In this document: positions 6,480 through 12,935 of the stretch, piece by piece
How positions within the stretch are numbered: the first letter of the stretch is position 1
How the letters are laid out: each line of letters starts with the position of its first letter
Source of the DNA: a virus
Reading direction: 5' to 3' (one strand)
DNA length: 28,766 bases
Virus record (IMG/VR): IMGVR_UViG_3300022542_000461
Location: 1-28,766 of that record
The notes under the pieces: model-generated
The model's database searches: none
The model's input: only the letters and a program-made list of their open reading frames with translations
What the model was told of the DNA's origin: nothing
Position numbers and translations under genes: made by a program

Positions 6480-7316
6480 CTAGAATGCTCCCTTCACTCT
6501 CTCGACGATCTGCTCTTTGGTGTAGGTCTTAGGACCAGCAGCCCCGATGTACTGGCCGCGCGTGGGGGCGTCCCGAATCCCCCAGTAGGCATTACCGTTG
6601 ATGTCGTGGGACACGTAGATACCCACGCCCTCGCAGCCCCACCTCCAGGCCAGGACGATCTGACCCAGCATGTCCTGATAGTCCATCCCATCATAGGCTT
6701 GGATGACAGGGTACTCCGGTAGCGCGGTTTGGAACTTACCCTGGAAGCAAGCATCGAATGTCTGCTGAATGTACCCCCGATGCCGGTTGGGGTAGAACGC
6801 CTGTGGGTACACCATGCGCATGTACCCGGCGATGCCTTGGTTGCGGAAGCCCTCCATATAGGGCATAGTCCAACGGCTACCCCGCGTGTCCGAGCACAGG
6901 TAGAGCTTAGGGCCGGGCTCTGGAATGTCGATGGCGTCATCGTAGAACGCATCCGCCAATCGTTGGGCTAGGAAGAAACCACCCTGGCCATGGTGTTCCC
7001 ACTCTACCTCAGCGTTGACTACGGCGAAGTCGGCGCCCTCATGGAGGGCTCTGGCCAAGACTGCACCTTCTTCTTCTGGCTTGTAGCCGTAGGCGTAGAT
7101 CTCCGCGCCGAGCTTCAAGCCGTTGGCCTTGACTGCGTAGGCCACATCCTTCCAAGGCGGGTGGCGGCTGGACCAGTAGTCATAGAAGGTCGCGCCGTTA
7201 CCGCACTTGGCGATGATGCAGTCACAGTGTAGGCCCTTGGCGAGGTTCACCAGTTGGTGAAGGTCATCGTGGCTGGGGTAGACGTATGCCCATAGGGCAC
7301 GCTTAAACTCGCTCAT
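6480..7316 (-). CDS. TIM-barrel glycoside-hydrolase-like protein
   Basis: A 278-residue protein from ATG 7316, preceded by GAGGAGGAAGAAG inside the end of the phosphoesterase gene. Regular alternation of strands and helices is visible (RALWAYVYP, CDCIIAKCGNG, LKLGAEIYAYGY, ADFAVVNAEVEWE, KLYLCSDTRG, YPVIQAYDGMD, GVGIYVSHD), as in TIM-barrel glycosidases and some endolysins. Glu residues in NAEVEWE and Asp in the later strands could be catalytic. I cannot place it in a numbered family. It may act in lysis or carbohydrate processing, although it lies inside the replication operon. Confidence 0.5.
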   Translation of the reverse strand: MSEFKRALWAYVYPSHDDLHQLVNLAKGLHCDCIIAKCGNGATFYDYWSSRHPPWKDVAYAVKANGLKLGAEIYAYGYKPEEEGAVLARALHEGADFAVVNAEVEWEHHGQGGFFLAQRLADAFYDDAIDIPEPGPKLYLCSDTRGSRWTMPYMEGFRNQGIAGYMRMVYPQAFYPNRHRGYIQQTFDACFQGKFQTALPEYPVIQAYDGMDYQDMLGQIVLAWRWGCEGVGIYVSHDINGNAYWGIRDAPTRGQYIGAAGPKTYTKEQIVERVKGAF

Positions 7317-8538
7317 CTTCTTCCTCCTCTTCGGTGCTGTACTCATAGGTAACCCCTTCCACCTGGAAGCGCCCACCAAACGGCTGTACCGAGGTCGGGT
7401 GTACAGCACCCTCGATGACTTGGCTGTAGGCAAAGCCGTACTGCCAGTCAGCAAAGGGGTCGTAGTCTGGGTCCAATCCACACAGACAGCCCATCACTGT
7501 CCAGCTCTGGGACTGTCCCTTATCGCCTCGCCAGGAGTAACCCTGGTTGCGATGGAAGTGGCAGCACAGCCCGCTAGACCGGACCTTCTCACCCATCCAC
7601 TTTGCGGCGTGCTTGATGTTGGCGTTCATGCGGAATGGCCCATGCGTCACGATGAACCCGGCGTAATCGATCCGGCCGGGGAAGGGCATGTACATGATCC
7701 CCCTCTTCCTGAGGCCCAGGATAGAGTCAATCGAGAGCATCTGGTTGCCGTCCTCGTTACGTAGGTTCACCAGCTCAGGACCTCGATTCCAGAGGTAACG
7801 CTGGAGTCGGAATTCATGGTTACCATCGAGCCAGATCTGCTCCGCATTAGGGACCGCCTGCCGGTGGTAGTCCAACATGTGCCGTGTCCCCGAGAACTCC
7901 TTCTCCATGTCGAAGAACCGCGTTGGGTTCTTGAGGAAGACAGAGATCGTGTAGGCGTCCAGCATATCCCCGCAGTAGAAGATCTTGTCGGGTTGGTAGT
8001 CGATGAGCGCCCGCTGTACGGCTAGCCATAGACCCTTCTCCTGGAAGGGGTAGTGCAGGTCACCGATATAGAAGGCACGCTCGCCTTCCTGTACATCAGT
8101 CAGGACCGCTACCAGAGGCGCCTCCTTGATGGCGAATAGCCCCTGCTCATAGCGGAGCTGGCGACGGGCGGCATTACTTGCAGCCTCCGCGCATCGGGGG
8201 TCGCAGTAGACATTGGTCTCCGACTTCGGTGGGAATATCTGCCCGCAGTACGCGCACTCCCGTTCAGCTAACGCAGGCTTGACCTCCCGTCCCTGTTGCA
8301 CCTGTTTCTTGCAGAGTGGCGAGCAATACTTCTGGTTCGCTGGTCGGACCTCCGGCAGCGTCCGCTTGCAGCCCTCTCGGGCACACGGCACGCGCTCCCG
8401 CTTCGTGGGGCCGGACTGCCGCTCGGCATATTCTACTGCACGGCGGCACTTCCCCGAGCAGTACCTCTTATTAGGTACGTCATCCTCGAGGATCTCGGTT
8501 GTGCAGCCCTTGCGGGCGCAGATTCTCTTCTTAGTCAT
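7303..8538 (-). CDS. Metallophosphoesterase with three N-terminal zinc fingers
   Basis: A 411-residue protein. Residues 1-120 hold three tandem fingers of the same layout: C7/C12 with C27/C31, C52/C57 with C72/C76, and C95/C98 with C112/C116. From about 155 the calcineurin-like phosphoesterase follows: GDLH (D160, H162), GDMLD (D191), GNHE (N240, H241), THG (H299) and CHFH (H327, H329), where Cys replaces the usual Gly of GHxH. The C-terminus is an acidic run. It may be a nuclease or phosphatase guided to nucleic acid by its fingers. The ATG at 8538 follows GAGGAGGG and overlaps the TGA of the Rad50 C-half gene. Confidence 0.85.
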   Translation of the reverse strand: MTKKRICARKGCTTEILEDDVPNKRYCSGKCRRAVEYAERQSGPTKRERVPCAREGCKRTLPEVRPANQKYCSPLCKKQVQQGREVKPALAERECAYCGQIFPPKSETNVYCDPRCAEAASNAARRQLRYEQGLFAIKEAPLVAVLTDVQEGERAFYIGDLHYPFQEKGLWLAVQRALIDYQPDKIFYCGDMLDAYTISVFLKNPTRFFDMEKEFSGTRHMLDYHRQAVPNAEQIWLDGNHEFRLQRYLWNRGPELVNLRNEDGNQMLSIDSILGLRKRGIMYMPFPGRIDYAGFIVTHGPFRMNANIKHAAKWMGEKVRSSGLCCHFHRNQGYSWRGDKGQSQSWTVMGCLCGLDPDYDPFADWQYGFAYSQVIEGAVHPTSVQPFGGRFQVEGVTYEYSTEEEEEDERV

Positions 8539-9218
8539 GGTGTACCCTCCTCTAGGCTACTGTTGGGTCCAGTTAGCCGCTTGACCTCAGCCTCATCACC
8601 CGGCTTCTCCACCAGGTATGTCACGACAGCAGCATCTGCGAGCTCTTCCTCGTGGCTGACCAAAACGATTTGGATCTCCAGCCGCTGAGCCATCTCACGC
8701 AGGAGCTGGCAAAGGGCCGGGCGGTATTCAGCAGAGACATGCGAGAACGGCTCGTCCAGTATCAGGAGCCGCCGGAGCGGTGGTCGGACGCTGATGGTGA
8801 GCAACACACGGAGTAGGAAGGACACCACGTTGACGACCGACCCGCCCTCGGCGCCCAGGATGGAAGTAGTCACATCCCCATCGGTCATGGTGATGTTCAC
8901 CGAGGCTACCCCACGCTTCAAGTCACTCTCGATACCGATGGTGATGGGCCTGCCGAAAACAGCGCTCAGACCTTCGCTCACCACAGTAGCTAGGGCCTGC
9001 TCGAAGGCGCCCCGCCACTTCTTCTCGAGGCTTTGGAGAATGACCAGCGCCTCCTTGTGGATCTCGGCGTCATGGGTAAGTACAGCGCGGGTCCGCTGGA
9101 CCTCCTCGGCCTGCCGGTCGAGTAGCTCAGCCTGGCCACGCCAGCGCTCCACCCGGCGGTGCAGATCCGCCAGCACCTGGATAGCGATACTGGTATTCTC
9201 AGCTAGTGCTGTCCTCAT
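8535..9218 (-). CDS. Rad50/SbcC-like ATPase, C-terminal half (split gene)
   Basis: A 227-residue protein with only the second half of a Rad50/SbcC ATPase. Residues 1-75 are a helical coiled coil; a signature-like motif is at 120-130 (GAEGGSVVNV), Walker B at 151-157 (LLILDEP), and the switch His at 189 (VSHEE). There is no Walker A, which is found instead in the gene at 10774-11700. The two products must presumably assemble to make a working ATPase with the Mre11-like nuclease. The ATG at 9218 follows GAGGATCTCC. It overlaps the 86-residue coiled-coil gene by 20 bases. A sequencing frameshift cannot explain the split, because three complete genes lie between the halves. Confidence 0.9.
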   Translation of the reverse strand: MRTALAENTSIAIQVLADLHRRVERWRGQAELLDRQAEEVQRTRAVLTHDAEIHKEALVILQSLEKKWRGAFEQALATVVSEGLSAVFGRPITIGIESDLKRGVASVNITMTDGDVTTSILGAEGGSVVNVVSFLLRVLLTISVRPPLRRLLILDEPFSHVSAEYRPALCQLLREMAQRLEIQIVLVSHEEELADAAVVTYLVEKPGDEAEVKRLTGPNSSLEEGTP

Positions 9219-9459
9219 GGAGATCCTCGTTTATCTTAGCTAGGTCCCCCCGGACTTCCTGGACCACCGCCGTGGCATCGTCTAGCATAGCCTGCGCCTG
9301 CTCCTGGAGGTCCTTCTTCACGTCAAACCCAAGGTCGGTGAGCTCCTCCGTAAGGGCGATGGCCTTCTTGTGGGCCTCCTCCTGCCGGGCCTGGAGCAGA
9401 GTGAAGTCCCGCTCCGACTCCCGCAGCTTGTCACGTAGGGCTACCAGCTCGGTGTTCAT
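9199..9459 (-). CDS. Small coiled-coil protein within the split Rad50 cluster
   Basis: An 86-residue, almost wholly helical protein with long heptad-like stretches (ELVALRDKLRESERDF, EEAHKKAIALTEELTDL). It carries no Walker, Cys-hook or membrane motif. It sits directly before the C-terminal Rad50 half, with a start (ATG 9459, GAGGAG upstream) that overlaps the stop of the 101-residue gene. Position and shape suggest that it supplies coiled coil missing from the split Rad50, but that is inference. It could also be an unrelated helical adaptor. Confidence 0.75.
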   Translation of the reverse strand: MNTELVALRDKLRESERDFTLLQARQEEAHKKAIALTEELTDLGFDVKKDLQEQAQAMLDDATAVVQEVRGDLAKINEDLHEDSTS

Positions 9460-9761
9460 GACTTCTCCTCGTGGTAGTAGTGCAAGAGTGCGATGTCGAG
9501 GATAAGAATTGCCTCATCGCGTGTCACAGAGAAGGCGCTCTCCGCCTCCTGGCTTGAGTCGTAGTACAGCGCGAGATAGTCAAGCTCTTCCCCCACAACC
9601 TCTACGGCCACGTTGTTGATTGCTTGGCTGCTGTACTCCGGGCAATCGAGGGAGCCCGCAGCCATCGTGCCAATCTCTACTCGGCTGGTGGGGTACAGCC
9701 GTAGCATTTCCTCCATCCCCTTTAGGACCTGTTCTCCGGTCATGCCTATTGCGTGTGTCAT
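9456..9761 (-). CDS. Hypothetical 101-residue protein in split Rad50 cluster
   Basis: The start overlaps the Mre11-like gene's TGA in an ATGA arrangement, and the stop overlaps the coiled-coil gene's start. The product (MTHAIGMTGEQVLKGMEEML at the N-terminus) is acidic and has an alpha/beta appearance, with a Tyr-rich patch (EELDYLALYYDSS) and a C-terminal helix ending HYYHEEKS. No family is recognised. Conserved placement with the nuclease complex would suggest an accessory factor. Confidence 0.65.
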   Translation of the reverse strand: MTHAIGMTGEQVLKGMEEMLRLYPTSRVEIGTMAAGSLDCPEYSSQAINNVAVEVVGEELDYLALYYDSSQEAESAFSVTRDEAILILDIALLHYYHEEKS

Positions 9762-10777
9762 AGTCCTACCTCCTCAAGATATTTCTTTGCAAGCTGCGCT
9801 GCCTCATCACTGAGGTTCCCGAGCTCAGCGAGCGCCTCGTCTAGGGTTAGTTCTTCTGCCTGAAGACCGGCCGATACCGTCCCGATGAAATGCTGGACCT
9901 CATCGCTGACGCCTTCCTCGTCTATCGGCCGGTCCTCAAAGACTTCTCCGGCGGGCAGGACCTTTGTAAGTCCATGTCGAGTCAGCTTAACTTGAGCCCC
10001 GTAGGAGTCCGCTTCATCGAGCTCGTTTGGCACCTCCAGCATGGTGACGAAGAGCCCCCGCGAGAGATTAGAGATAGTGCGGGAGATCCTAGAGATACTC
10101 CCGACGTTTGCGAAGTGCTTGTCCTTCTTCTTACCCAGAGAGTGGATGCCCAGGTCCTCATGTATGTGGCCACACATCACCACGTCGATGCCCTCTAGCG
10201 GTAGCTCGGTCACATTCACTGAGCTGTACATTCGCTGGGCGCCGGGTGGAAGGATGGGGCCGTGGGCTACCATGACGACGGCCGGGCGCTGCTTAAACTG
10301 CCCGGCGACATCCTTTTCTTCCTCTGTTAGGACGTAGTAGTCTGGGTCTGCGGCCTTCTCGTCGTCCCATGGGCGGCCTACTAGCAGCACATTGCCCAAG
10401 AGGTAAGGGCCGTTGAGAACCGTCAGAACCTCCGCCTTGCATAGTGTCCCAAGTGGCTGCTTGTCTAGGCTGCTGAGACCCTCGGGACCAAGGTCATGGT
10501 TACCTGGCACAACCAGGTGCGGGCGCCGGTCGGATGCCGGTAGCACCAAGTGGTCACCGAACAAATAGATGCGCTGGTTCACCAGCCGGTGGCTGACCCG
10601 GTTCGGGCGCTTCTGGTGGAAGACGTCACCTGTGCATACGGTAGCCGCGCATCCCAAGTCGGCCGACATGTCCCGCACCTCCATCAACTTCTCATAGATG
10701 CTGGTGCAGTAGTCGTCGATGCGCCCGAGTGGCGGCTTATCGGCGATGTGGGGGTCTGAGTAAAAGAGTATTCTCAT
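9758..10777 (-). CDS. sbcD: Mre11/SbcD-like nuclease
   Basis: A 339-residue calcineurin-like nuclease. It has all phosphoesterase motifs: D8 and H10 in YSDPH, D51 in GDVFH, N93/H94/D95 in GNHD, H172 in AHG and H204/H206 in GHIH. Mre11/SbcD trims and cuts DNA ends and hairpins under control of the Rad50/SbcC ATPase. The ATG at 10777 is preferred to a GTG at 10789: it overlaps the TGA of the Rad50 N-half gene, has GAGAGGTG upstream, and starts the domain exactly. The C-terminal part is helical and acidic, as expected for the Rad50-binding region. Confidence 0.92.
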   Translation of the reverse strand: MRILFYSDPHIADKPPLGRIDDYCTSIYEKLMEVRDMSADLGCAATVCTGDVFHQKRPNRVSHRLVNQRIYLFGDHLVLPASDRRPHLVVPGNHDLGPEGLSSLDKQPLGTLCKAEVLTVLNGPYLLGNVLLVGRPWDDEKAADPDYYVLTEEEKDVAGQFKQRPAVVMVAHGPILPPGAQRMYSSVNVTELPLEGIDVVMCGHIHEDLGIHSLGKKKDKHFANVGSISRISRTISNLSRGLFVTMLEVPNELDEADSYGAQVKLTRHGLTKVLPAGEVFEDRPIDEEGVSDEVQHFIGTVSAGLQAEELTLDEALAELGNLSDEAAQLAKKYLEEVGL

Positions 10778-11700
10778 TGGAACGGGCACCTCTCGCAGAC
10801 TTCAGCTTCCTCGCACGCACATGCGTAGTCCTTGCGCAGCTTCTCCACGAAAGGCGCGGCCTTCTCGACCAGGCCATCCGCGGCGTCGGCTTCCGCGCGC
10901 GCACGCGCGTAGCGTTCTATTATAGGTCTCACCTCCAGCAGGGTCTCGACCTTGCCGGTGGCTATGCCAAGGTCCAGCCCGATGGTCTCGAGGTCCACGT
11001 TCACCAGTTTCGCCAGCAGTGCTAGCTTTGCATGAATTTCCTGGACACGCTCCGCTGTTGACTGAGCCTTAGTGGCGATACGCAGGGCCTCCTCGAGCCC
11101 ATCGAGCTGGGCCTGTAGCTTCTCCACATCTGGGAGGGCTTCGCGTTGCTCCTTCAGCTCCTCTAGCTGGGTGGCCTTAGCCTCGGCCTCACGCCGGAGC
11201 CGGTCGCCCACCTTCTTACACTCCATCTGGGCAGTGACCACGGCATCCAGGCGCGTGACCTTACCGAAGATCTTGGCCTGCCGGGACCCGCTCTCGCTCA
11301 GCACAAACACCGGGTCGAACTGGTCCTGGAGCTGGGGTGTGAGGCGGGTGTCCTTGTCTACCTCTATCTCCCCTATCGCCAGGCGCTCTCGGATCTCCTC
11401 GGGTACGTCATGCCCAACCTTGAAGAACATCTTCCCGTCGATACCGTAGGTGGCGCTCTTGCCACGCTCCTTCTGCCAAGTCACGCAGCAGTCATCGAAC
11501 TCTAGGACGACAGTGCACTCCTTCTCGCCCTGCCGGATGAAGTCATCCCCTGTGGCGTTCAGCAGAGCACACCGAATGGCCCGGAGGATGGCGCTCTTAC
11601 CCGCACGGCCAGGGCCAACGAGCACAGTGAGCTGCCCGAGCTCGAGCTCGGCAGACTTGATGCTCTGGAAGTTGGTGACCCTAACTGTCTTCAGGCTCAT
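10774..11700 (-). CDS. Rad50/SbcC-like ATPase, N-terminal half ending at zinc hook
   Basis: A 308-residue protein. Residues 1-150 are the N-lobe of an SMC-like ATPase with Walker A GPGRAGKS at 29-36 and the Q-loop region. A coiled coil follows (about 155-290), and the protein stops at CxC (C294, C296) and CERC (C302, C305), which resembles the zinc hook that normally lies at the tip of the Rad50 coil. No signature or Walker B motif is present; they are in the gene at 8535-9218. The ATG at 11700 follows GGAGGGACGG. The 3' end overlaps the Mre11-like start, so the two are coupled. Confidence 0.9.
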   Translation of the reverse strand: MSLKTVRVTNFQSIKSAELELGQLTVLVGPGRAGKSAILRAIRCALLNATGDDFIRQGEKECTVVLEFDDCCVTWQKERGKSATYGIDGKMFFKVGHDVPEEIRERLAIGEIEVDKDTRLTPQLQDQFDPVFVLSESGSRQAKIFGKVTRLDAVVTAQMECKKVGDRLRREAEAKATQLEELKEQREALPDVEKLQAQLDGLEEALRIATKAQSTAERVQEIHAKLALLAKLVNVDLETIGLDLGIATGKVETLLEVRPIIERYARARAEADAADGLVEKAAPFVEKLRKDYACACEEAEVCERCPFQ

Positions 11701-11911
11701 CCGTCCCTCCGGTCTTGAGATAGCGCAGCGCCTCGCTTAGATTGACTAAGATTGTCAGGTGCCGCACGAGAGTCTGGAGATACCCCAGATCCATGCACTC
11801 TGGTTCTTTACCTTCCTCCACTAGGTAAACGCCACCACACTTACAGACGTAGATACTACCACTCGTTGGTAGCTCTACTTCAGCTACTCGGGTCGTTCCC
11901 TTCTCCTCCAC
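11681..11911 (-). CDS. Small Cys-containing protein
   Basis: A 76-residue protein read from a GTG at 11911 with AAAGGAG eight bases upstream; the frame extends further up but without a site. It has a zinc-binding look, with VCKCGGVYLVEEG and a third Cys in PECMDLG, followed by a Leu-rich helix (LVRHLTILVNLSEALRYL). It overlaps the recA-like gene by 32 bases and the Rad50 N-half gene by 20. No family is known to me. Confidence 0.6.
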   Translation of the reverse strand: MEEKGTTRVAEVELPTSGSIYVCKCGGVYLVEEGKEPECMDLGYLQTLVRHLTILVNLSEALRYLKTGGTDEPEDS

Positions 11912-12935
11912 GGTTCTTCTCCTTTGGTAGAGGGATCTGCCAATCGGTTGGCGCCTTAGCGATGCGCTCCTGTAGCTCAGCGTCACCCTCCAGAATGGGG
12001 CCGAAAGCATCCCGGCGGAACTTCTTCCCGCCATAGGCATACCAGCCCTTGTTGTCCTCGATGATACCCACCTCGACCGCACAGTCTAAGGCGGACCCTA
12101 CCTTGTCGATGCCAGTCTGGAAGTCGATGTCGAACATGCACTCACGATAGGGGTCACCTACCGTACTCTTCACGATGCGGGCCTTGACCTTGATACCCGT
12201 GGGCTTCGTTGGATCCCCTAACCGCTGGGCCTCCACAAGGTGGACCTTCAGGCTAGTCCAGTAGTTGAGAGTCTTCTCGCCCAGCATAGTCATCTCAGGC
12301 TTGCCCCATCGGGAGAACTCGATCTTATGCCGGAGCTGGTTGACAACCACTAGGGCAACACGCTCTCGTGCAATCATCGGGTGTAGCTTACGCAGCGCCC
12401 GGCTTAGCTCCCGTGCGTGGGCCGCTACCGTGGTATCCCCAAAGTCGGCCTCAATGTCGGCCTTGGATGGCGAGCCCGCAATGGAGTCGTAGACGATAGT
12501 CACAAGCCGGTCGGGAAACTTCTCCCGAGAGACCTTAACTACCGTCTGGATCTGCCGCAACACGTCCTCCAAAGTCTCTCCTTGAAGCTGAAGTAGCAAG
12601 TCATCGTCGATGCCCAGGCGTATAGCCCGGTCCTGCCAGTAGCGGCGCTCACTGTCCGCTAGTACGGCGATGCCCCCGCGCCTTTGCGTCTCAGCCAGGA
12701 GGTGAAGGCCAACGGTAGACTTACCGCTAGCCTCCGTGCCAATGATGGTGGTGAGACGGCCGGTCGGTACGCCGGGGTGCCCGAACGTGTAATCCAAGAT
12801 CGGGCATTGGGTCGAGACGTACTCCAGGACCTTAGAGTCAAGCTGCGCACCGGCGCCGACGATGATTCTCTCGTCACCCGTGGCCTCTTGTATCTCCCTA
12901 AGATCCTGGATCTCCCTCTCGTGCTTATTCGGCAT
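11880..12935 (-). CDS. recA: RecA/UvsX-like recombinase
   Basis: A 351-residue recombinase. Walker A GTEASGKST is at 66-74, the strand ending at D150 (RLVTIVYDSIAGS) is Walker B, and VVVNQLRHKI corresponds to the L2-region start. It forms filaments on single-stranded DNA and pairs it with a homologous duplex, driving recombination-dependent replication with the neighbouring SSB and Mre11/Rad50 genes. The ATG at 12935 overlaps the SSB gene by 11 bases; its ribosome-binding site is weak (GCGG). A 6-bp GC hairpin lies just upstream. Confidence 0.9.
   Translation of the reverse strand: MPNKHEREIQDLREIQEATGDERIIVGAGAQLDSKVLEYVSTQCPILDYTFGHPGVPTGRLTTIIGTEASGKSTVGLHLLAETQRRGGIAVLADSERRYWQDRAIRLGIDDDLLLQLQGETLEDVLRQIQTVVKVSREKFPDRLVTIVYDSIAGSPSKADIEADFGDTTVAAHARELSRALRKLHPMIARERVALVVVNQLRHKIEFSRWGKPEMTMLGEKTLNYWTSLKVHLVEAQRLGDPTKPTGIKVKARIVKSTVGDPYRECMFDIDFQTGIDKVGSALDCAVEVGIIEDNKGWYAYGGKKFRRDAFGPILEGDAELQERIAKAPTDWQIPLPKEKNRGGEGNDPSS

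Follow-up and report, generated by a model that had tools for sequence, protein, structure and literature searches.

The window analysed here, a 28,766-base fragment of a virus genome (IMG/VR virus record IMGVR_UViG_3300022542_000461), carries on its minus strand, in this order, the genes for a UvsX/RecA-type recombinase, the N-terminal half of a Rad50 (N), an Mre11/SbcD-type nuclease, a 101-aa protein, an 86-aa helical protein (S), the C-terminal half of the Rad50 (C) and a phosphoesterase (Table 1). From N onward, each gene shares a few bases with the next and is preceded by a Shine-Dalgarno-like sequence, which excludes a frameshift artefact. The ATG at 10777 overlaps the stop of N as ATGA and is more likely the start of Mre11 than the GTG at 10789. 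The last gene (7303-8538, minus strand), which overlaps that of C, encodes a protein of 411 aa in which several N-terminal CxxC motifs, resembling zinc fingers, are joined to a second metallophosphoesterase domain (phrog_221, 1.5e-30).

A sequence-only reading of the window had proposed a Rad50 divided into at least two genes around an Mre11-like nuclease. An open reading frame with a Walker A and an end at CERCPFQ is indeed present where it placed the N-half. The three genes that it saw between the halves (Mre11, the 101-aa and the 86-aa ORF) are present as well, the 101-aa ORF falling outside the conserved set because it is missing from the closest relative, L009, in which Mre11 overlaps S directly. 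Compared with L009, dN/dS was 0.20 for N, 0.28 for Mre11, 0.35 for S and 0.31 for C, which indicates that all four genes are under purifying selection.

Table 1. Genes and motifs of the split Rad50 operon and its neighbourhood in the window.
Feature	Position	Strand	Description or basis
UvsX/RecA-type recombinase upstream of N	11880..12935	-	Pfam RecA 4e-45, phrog_97 6e-52; recombination-cluster context
Rad50 N-half, 308 aa	10774..11700	-	N-lobe of ABC ATPase, ascending helical arm, putative free C-terminal hook half; Pfam AAA_23 2e-8, phrog_16465 2e-29
Walker A GPGRAGKS, N residues 29-36	11593..11616	-	sequence
CxxC (CERC), putative half of zinc hook, N residues 302-305	10786..10797	-	
Mre11/SbcD-type nuclease, 339 aa from ATG	9758..10777	-	Pfam Metallophos 4.2e-13
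101-aa ORF in operon	9456..9761	-	no family match (Pfam, PHROG)
S, 86-aa helical protein, proposed distal returning arm of Rad50	9199..9459	-	
Rad50 C-half, 227 aa	8535..9218	-	proximal returning helix (residues 2-88) and C-lobe; phrog_15167 2e-21; no Walker A
Degenerate ABC signature GAEGGS, C residues 122-127	8838..8855	-	alignment to Pf Rad50 LSGGE
Walker B and catalytic Glu, LLILDE, C residues 151-156	8751..8768	-	
Switch histidine H189 of C	8652..8654	-	

Both halves were predicted to fold as lobes of Rad50. The AlphaFold2 model of N (36 sequences) had a pLDDT of 84.7 and its best Foldseek match was the P. furiosus Rad50 N-half 9a9j_A (1.8e-7), while the N profile matched Rad50 5f3w (5e-10). 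The model of C (54 sequences, pLDDT 93.4) matched 1f2u_B (2.5e-7), and the best matches of the C profile were the Rad50 C-half chains 3qkr_B (4e-11) and 1ii8_B (2e-10). The top structural matches of N and C are thus themselves separate half-chains. Rad50 is normally one chain that folds back at the hook, which joins the ascending and the returning arms; here the halves were separate genes in every case.

The motifs of the ATPase are distributed between the halves. G29, G34 and K35 of the Walker A and Q127 of the Q-loop are invariant in 36 N-halves; D155 and E156 are invariant in 54 C-halves, and the switch position is His in 50 of them. For C, the Walker B, the switch His and the lack of a Walker A were as first described, but the signature attributed to it is present only in a degenerate form (AEGGS in the window, xGGG in the family): the GG is kept and the serine position is variable (R in 23, F in 11 and Y in 5 of 54). 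R137 of C, which aligns with an Arg of the P. furiosus signature helix, is found in 51/54 C-halves. The D-loop Asp is absent as a family feature, the position being Ser in 44/54 and Asp in 5, and with the loss of both the signature Ser and this Asp the ATP-driven engagement of the heads may differ from that of the usual Rad50. The D-H, GD.FH, GNHD, AH and GH.H motifs of Mre11 are present in the window, and across 45 relatives its metal-ligand motifs vary little or not at all; a single-sequence search of the PDB with the window Mre11 gave no match. The split protein is a Rad50 homologue that very likely functions in the same way, but it departs from the usual Rad50 in not being a single chain and in its unconserved signature Ser and D-loop Asp.

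The N-half of the window ends in ...VCERCPFQ, with the CxxC three residues ahead of the stop, and this position is general. The CxxC lies at most 25 residues from the C-terminus in 40/41 distinct N-halves, against 26/606 other ORFs of similar size from the same loci, so that the split falls at the hook, as the sequence-only reading had it. The tail after the CxxC measures 3-21 residues (median 6.5 among the aligned N-halves), the consensus is LGxCPTCG, and C302 and C305 are invariant in the N-half alignment (A8). The N profile also matched the N-side of the solved Rad50 zinc hooks 1l8d and 6zff. The CxxC of N is therefore a likely zinc hook half, which would bind zinc. A naturally hookless variant was seen in Microbacterium phage Magritte, whose N-half (L005:4998-6050) is without any CxxC, although in the C-half it shares about 50% identity with a relative that has the hook. 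Other genes are found within the operon: an AP2-domain gene lies between N and S in vB_BboS-125 (L002:7113-7685), and an ORF that looks HNH-like by eye lies between N and Mre11 in a 485-kb phage (L004:7287-8018). These are possible homing endonucleases, and such genes might have caused the original split.

The same separation was found in phages very divergent from one another. A tblastn search of 50,697 phage records for N- and C-halves found separate N and C genes in Bacillus phage vB_BboS-125, Microbacterium phage Magritte, Tunturiibacter phage Tunturi_5, Microcystis phage Mvi-JY20 and the 485-kb metagenomic phage; in Mvi-JY20 and vB_BboS-125, N was spotted by gene position and alignment and then confirmed by profile search. 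Single-protein scans of IMG/VR with the window halves gave no matches and the six-sequence alignments for the IMG/VR scan had no conserved stretch; two scans with small alignments of three and two sequences returned 58 and 22 loci. ORF calling and HMM search in IMG/VR and isolate phages gave 59 distinct C-halves and 40 N-halves. The N matches numbered 47, all of 295-485 aa, and the C-halves were mostly of 189-264 aa, the longer C ORFs being extended upstream in frame by sequence without a match to any other HMM. We also looked among the ORFs for naturally fused N, S or C as Rosetta-stone evidence and found none. Two unnamed families, phrog_1499 and phrog_4747 (427 and 610 positions), also match most N-halves and may hold further relatives.

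When 50 virus records were searched over their whole length, C was present in 50/50 and N in 45/50, always in separate frames, and the five records without N are contigs that are possibly incomplete. Several records have N and C separated by more than 100 kb or encoded on different strands. A full-length SbcC, beside which the halves would be remnants, was sought with the phrog_77 profile in 51 records (relatives, the window itself being a fragment) and only halves were found. A scan of genome contigs gave one real N-Mre11-S-C locus, L089, on a 7-kb MAG contig that is probably phage, and four further weak matches that are apparently other ATPases. The split Rad50 is thus an old phage family that many uncultured phages carry and not an oddity of one record, and with the halves kept separate across such divergent phages and predicted to fold as Rad50 lobes, the claim of a Rad50 encoded by at least two genes around Mre11 is strongly supported.

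The gene order proved to be conserved as well. The order N-Mre11-S-C on one strand, sought in other phages as the initial reading had suggested, was found in 31/33 distinct loci with both halves; of the other two, one is N-S-C-Mre11 and one is without a detected S. An Mre11 gene is present in 33/33 of these loci and S, as an HMM family, in 32/33. In a divergent group, including records missed by the S profile search, S directly follows the hook-ending N gene, so that N-S-C is collinear with the Rad50 chain. Many loci carry extra genes between Mre11 and C, among them a 336-aa ORF between Mre11 and S (L004:9810-10820) that by eye resembles a PD-(D/E)XK (Cas4/RecB-type) nuclease with C-terminal cysteines. 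In vB_BboS-125 an intact 326-aa Mre11-type ORF, unannotated in RefSeq (L002:8953-9933 = NC_048735.1 22423-23403), adjoins the C-half operon just after it.

To compare the arms we measured the ascending arm from the Q-loop to the CxxC and the returning arm from the CxxC to the signature Gly, with two single-chain proteins only as yardsticks for their balance. T4 gp46 has 148 residues up and 184 down, a difference of -36, and phiLo has 133 up and 172 down, a difference of -39. The window has 175 up in N and 86+125=211 down in S and C together, again a difference of -36. In the short-arm class, up minus down ranges from -23 to -52, except for L048 at -85, in which the start of the C ORF was probably called too far upstream, whereas in the long-arm members it ranges from +5 to +97. 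The N arm varies from 139 to 283 aa in steps of about 144, 192, 230 and 275, with S and C nearly constant. In the N arm of part of the long-arm members we observed one to four contiguous tandem helical units of about 41 aa (LxGFDPxVVPD...), for example in residues 242-408 of the N-half of L083 (locus 7989-9341) and in L076, L082, L071 and L068. Since the repeats sit there, the N arm appears to lengthen by repeat duplication in N alone, and since S and C are nearly constant, the extra N units must find their pairing partners among themselves or in additional S.

The suggestion that the 86-aa coil replaces the missing returning arm was therefore borne out in part. In the short-arm class, co-occurrence, order and arm length agree with it; the long-arm members and the sequence comparison do not, as the S profile scored no better against the returning arms of T4 and phiLo Rad50 than against the reversed arms. 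A likeness of S to the returning arm of T4 gp46 noticed by eye was rejected, being no more than coiled-coil background. Because of the long-arm excess and the lack of similarity to canonical arms, we give only an even chance to S being the distal part of the returning arm, paired with the distal N arm in a three-part Rad50 of N, S and C.

The other way to build the arm is a two-part Rad50 in which the N arm would be self-supporting, through helical hairpins and tandem repeats, and would alone carry the hook, with S as an accessory. AlphaFold2 models N alone as three helices and breaks the chain, with fair confidence, at residues 189-191; such helix breaks could be hairpins, and the stepwise N-arm lengths with one to four 41-aa units, at S and C lengths that barely change, point the same way. 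However, AlphaFold2 tends to fold lone helices of a single chain back on themselves, the short-arm class, including the window, has S and C together at the length of a canonical returning arm, and S is co-inherited with the halves, between or beside them in 32/33 loci. We regard this form of two-part Rad50 as a real alternative, somewhat less likely than not.

The remaining explanations dispense with a Rad50 assembled from separate chains. If C partnered another ATPase and N acted alone with Mre11, there would be no joint ATPase, and the degenerate signature Ser and D-loop Asp, as well as halves that are sometimes far apart in the genome, would fit; the complementary ABC motifs, the Rad50 fold of both halves, their co-occurrence in 45/50 records, the conserved order and the absence of a full-length SbcC in the same records make this improbable. 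That the halves are rejoined into an ordinary Rad50 by a split intein, trans-splicing or frameshifting is very improbable: phage split genes are sometimes joined so, but we found no support for it in the data, Mre11 and S lie between the halves, no Rfam intron occurs in the window and the halves can be on opposite strands and more than 100 kb apart. There is also no room for an intein, because only 3-21 residues follow the CxxC and the C-halves begin directly in coil. Finally, apart from the unusual split itself, nothing suggests that these genes are what is left of a decaying Rad50 or that the assembly is wrong, readings to which we attach practically no probability; the same split recurs in dozens of independent contigs and four isolate genomes, dN/dS is 0.20-0.35 and the catalytic motifs are intact, and the conservation of the split refutes such a reading.

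From the split genes, the conserved motifs, the co-occurrence and the predicted folds we infer a phage Mre11-Rad50 recombination complex of the gp47/gp46 type in which Rad50 is split at the hook apex and assembles in trans (probability about 0.85). Since neither half is a complete ATPase, assembly of N and C in trans is itself highly probable in our analysis. In established Rad50 biology, ATP joins two Rad50 heads, the heads gate Mre11 and the CxxC tips bridge through zinc. In the split complex, N would supply the Walker A, the Q-loop and the ascending arm, ending as a free hook half, and C would supply the returning helix, the Walker B, the catalytic Glu and the switch His. The two lobes would pack into one ABC head, like the separate P. 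furiosus Rad50 chains in 1f2u and 1ii8, and ATP would join two such heads as a dimer. Mre11 would bind at the base of the arms and be gated by the heads, the CxxC tips of two N-halves would share a zinc ion as a bridge between two arms, and S may pair with the distal N arm as the missing distal returning arm. The complex would process DNA ends for UvsX-type recombination, as T4 gp46/47 does.

T4 gp46/gp47 resembles this complex in its ABC N- and C-lobes, its CxxC hook, its Mre11 partner, its UvsX-type neighbourhood and its arm balance of -36. It differs in that gp46 is one chain of 560 aa, whereas the phage split family is cut after the CxxC and has a separate S gene, and in its signature Ser and D-loop Asp, which are not conserved in the split family. 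The P. furiosus Rad50 half-chains (1f2u, 1ii8, 3qkr, 9a9j), the best matches here, likewise form one ABC head from separate N and C chains; these chains were engineered from a single-chain protein and lack the hook and most of the arm. Unlike them, the phage split is natural and its N chain retains the hook. The N- and C-halves already have PHROG families of their own, 16465 ('exonuclease') and 15167 ('ATPase'), which are not described as halves of one Rad50; the S proteins have no PHROG family in common.

Rearranged architectures of the same complex have been described, namely the Mre11/Rad50 fusion proteins of PMC3175470. Thermus phage phiLo likewise has an Mre11/Rad50 fusion, which is the opposite of the phage Rad50 split. 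The survey PMC7824862 describes jumbo phages in which DNA polymerase III alpha and RNA polymerase subunits are split, which are alike in that a large enzyme is encoded as separate subdomain genes that need reassembly, although the enzyme is different; in the passages covered, SbcC/SbcD is nearly universal in jumbo phages and no split SbcC is reported. Our search of the open-access literature, with subscription papers outside its scope, found no report of a split Rad50/SbcC.

Rad50 is generally regarded as a chain that must fold back. The natural cut at the hook suggests that covalent continuity at the Rad50 apex is dispensable, and the family supplies separable pieces for testing the roles of the hook, of the arms and of head coupling. 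It also gives a likely function to phage proteins that now carry the labels 'exonuclease', 'ATPase' or 'hypothetical', and a small subunit that is new is predicted. More speculatively, Rad50 here may consist of three separable chains, N, S and C, whose arm could open, exchange or, by the 41-aa repeats in N, be lengthened without involving the head; the hook would be a free C-terminus, and the signature and D-loop would have been re-engineered. If so, the three-chain Rad50 would make the Mre11-Rad50 ring of a large group of uncultured phages modular and openable.
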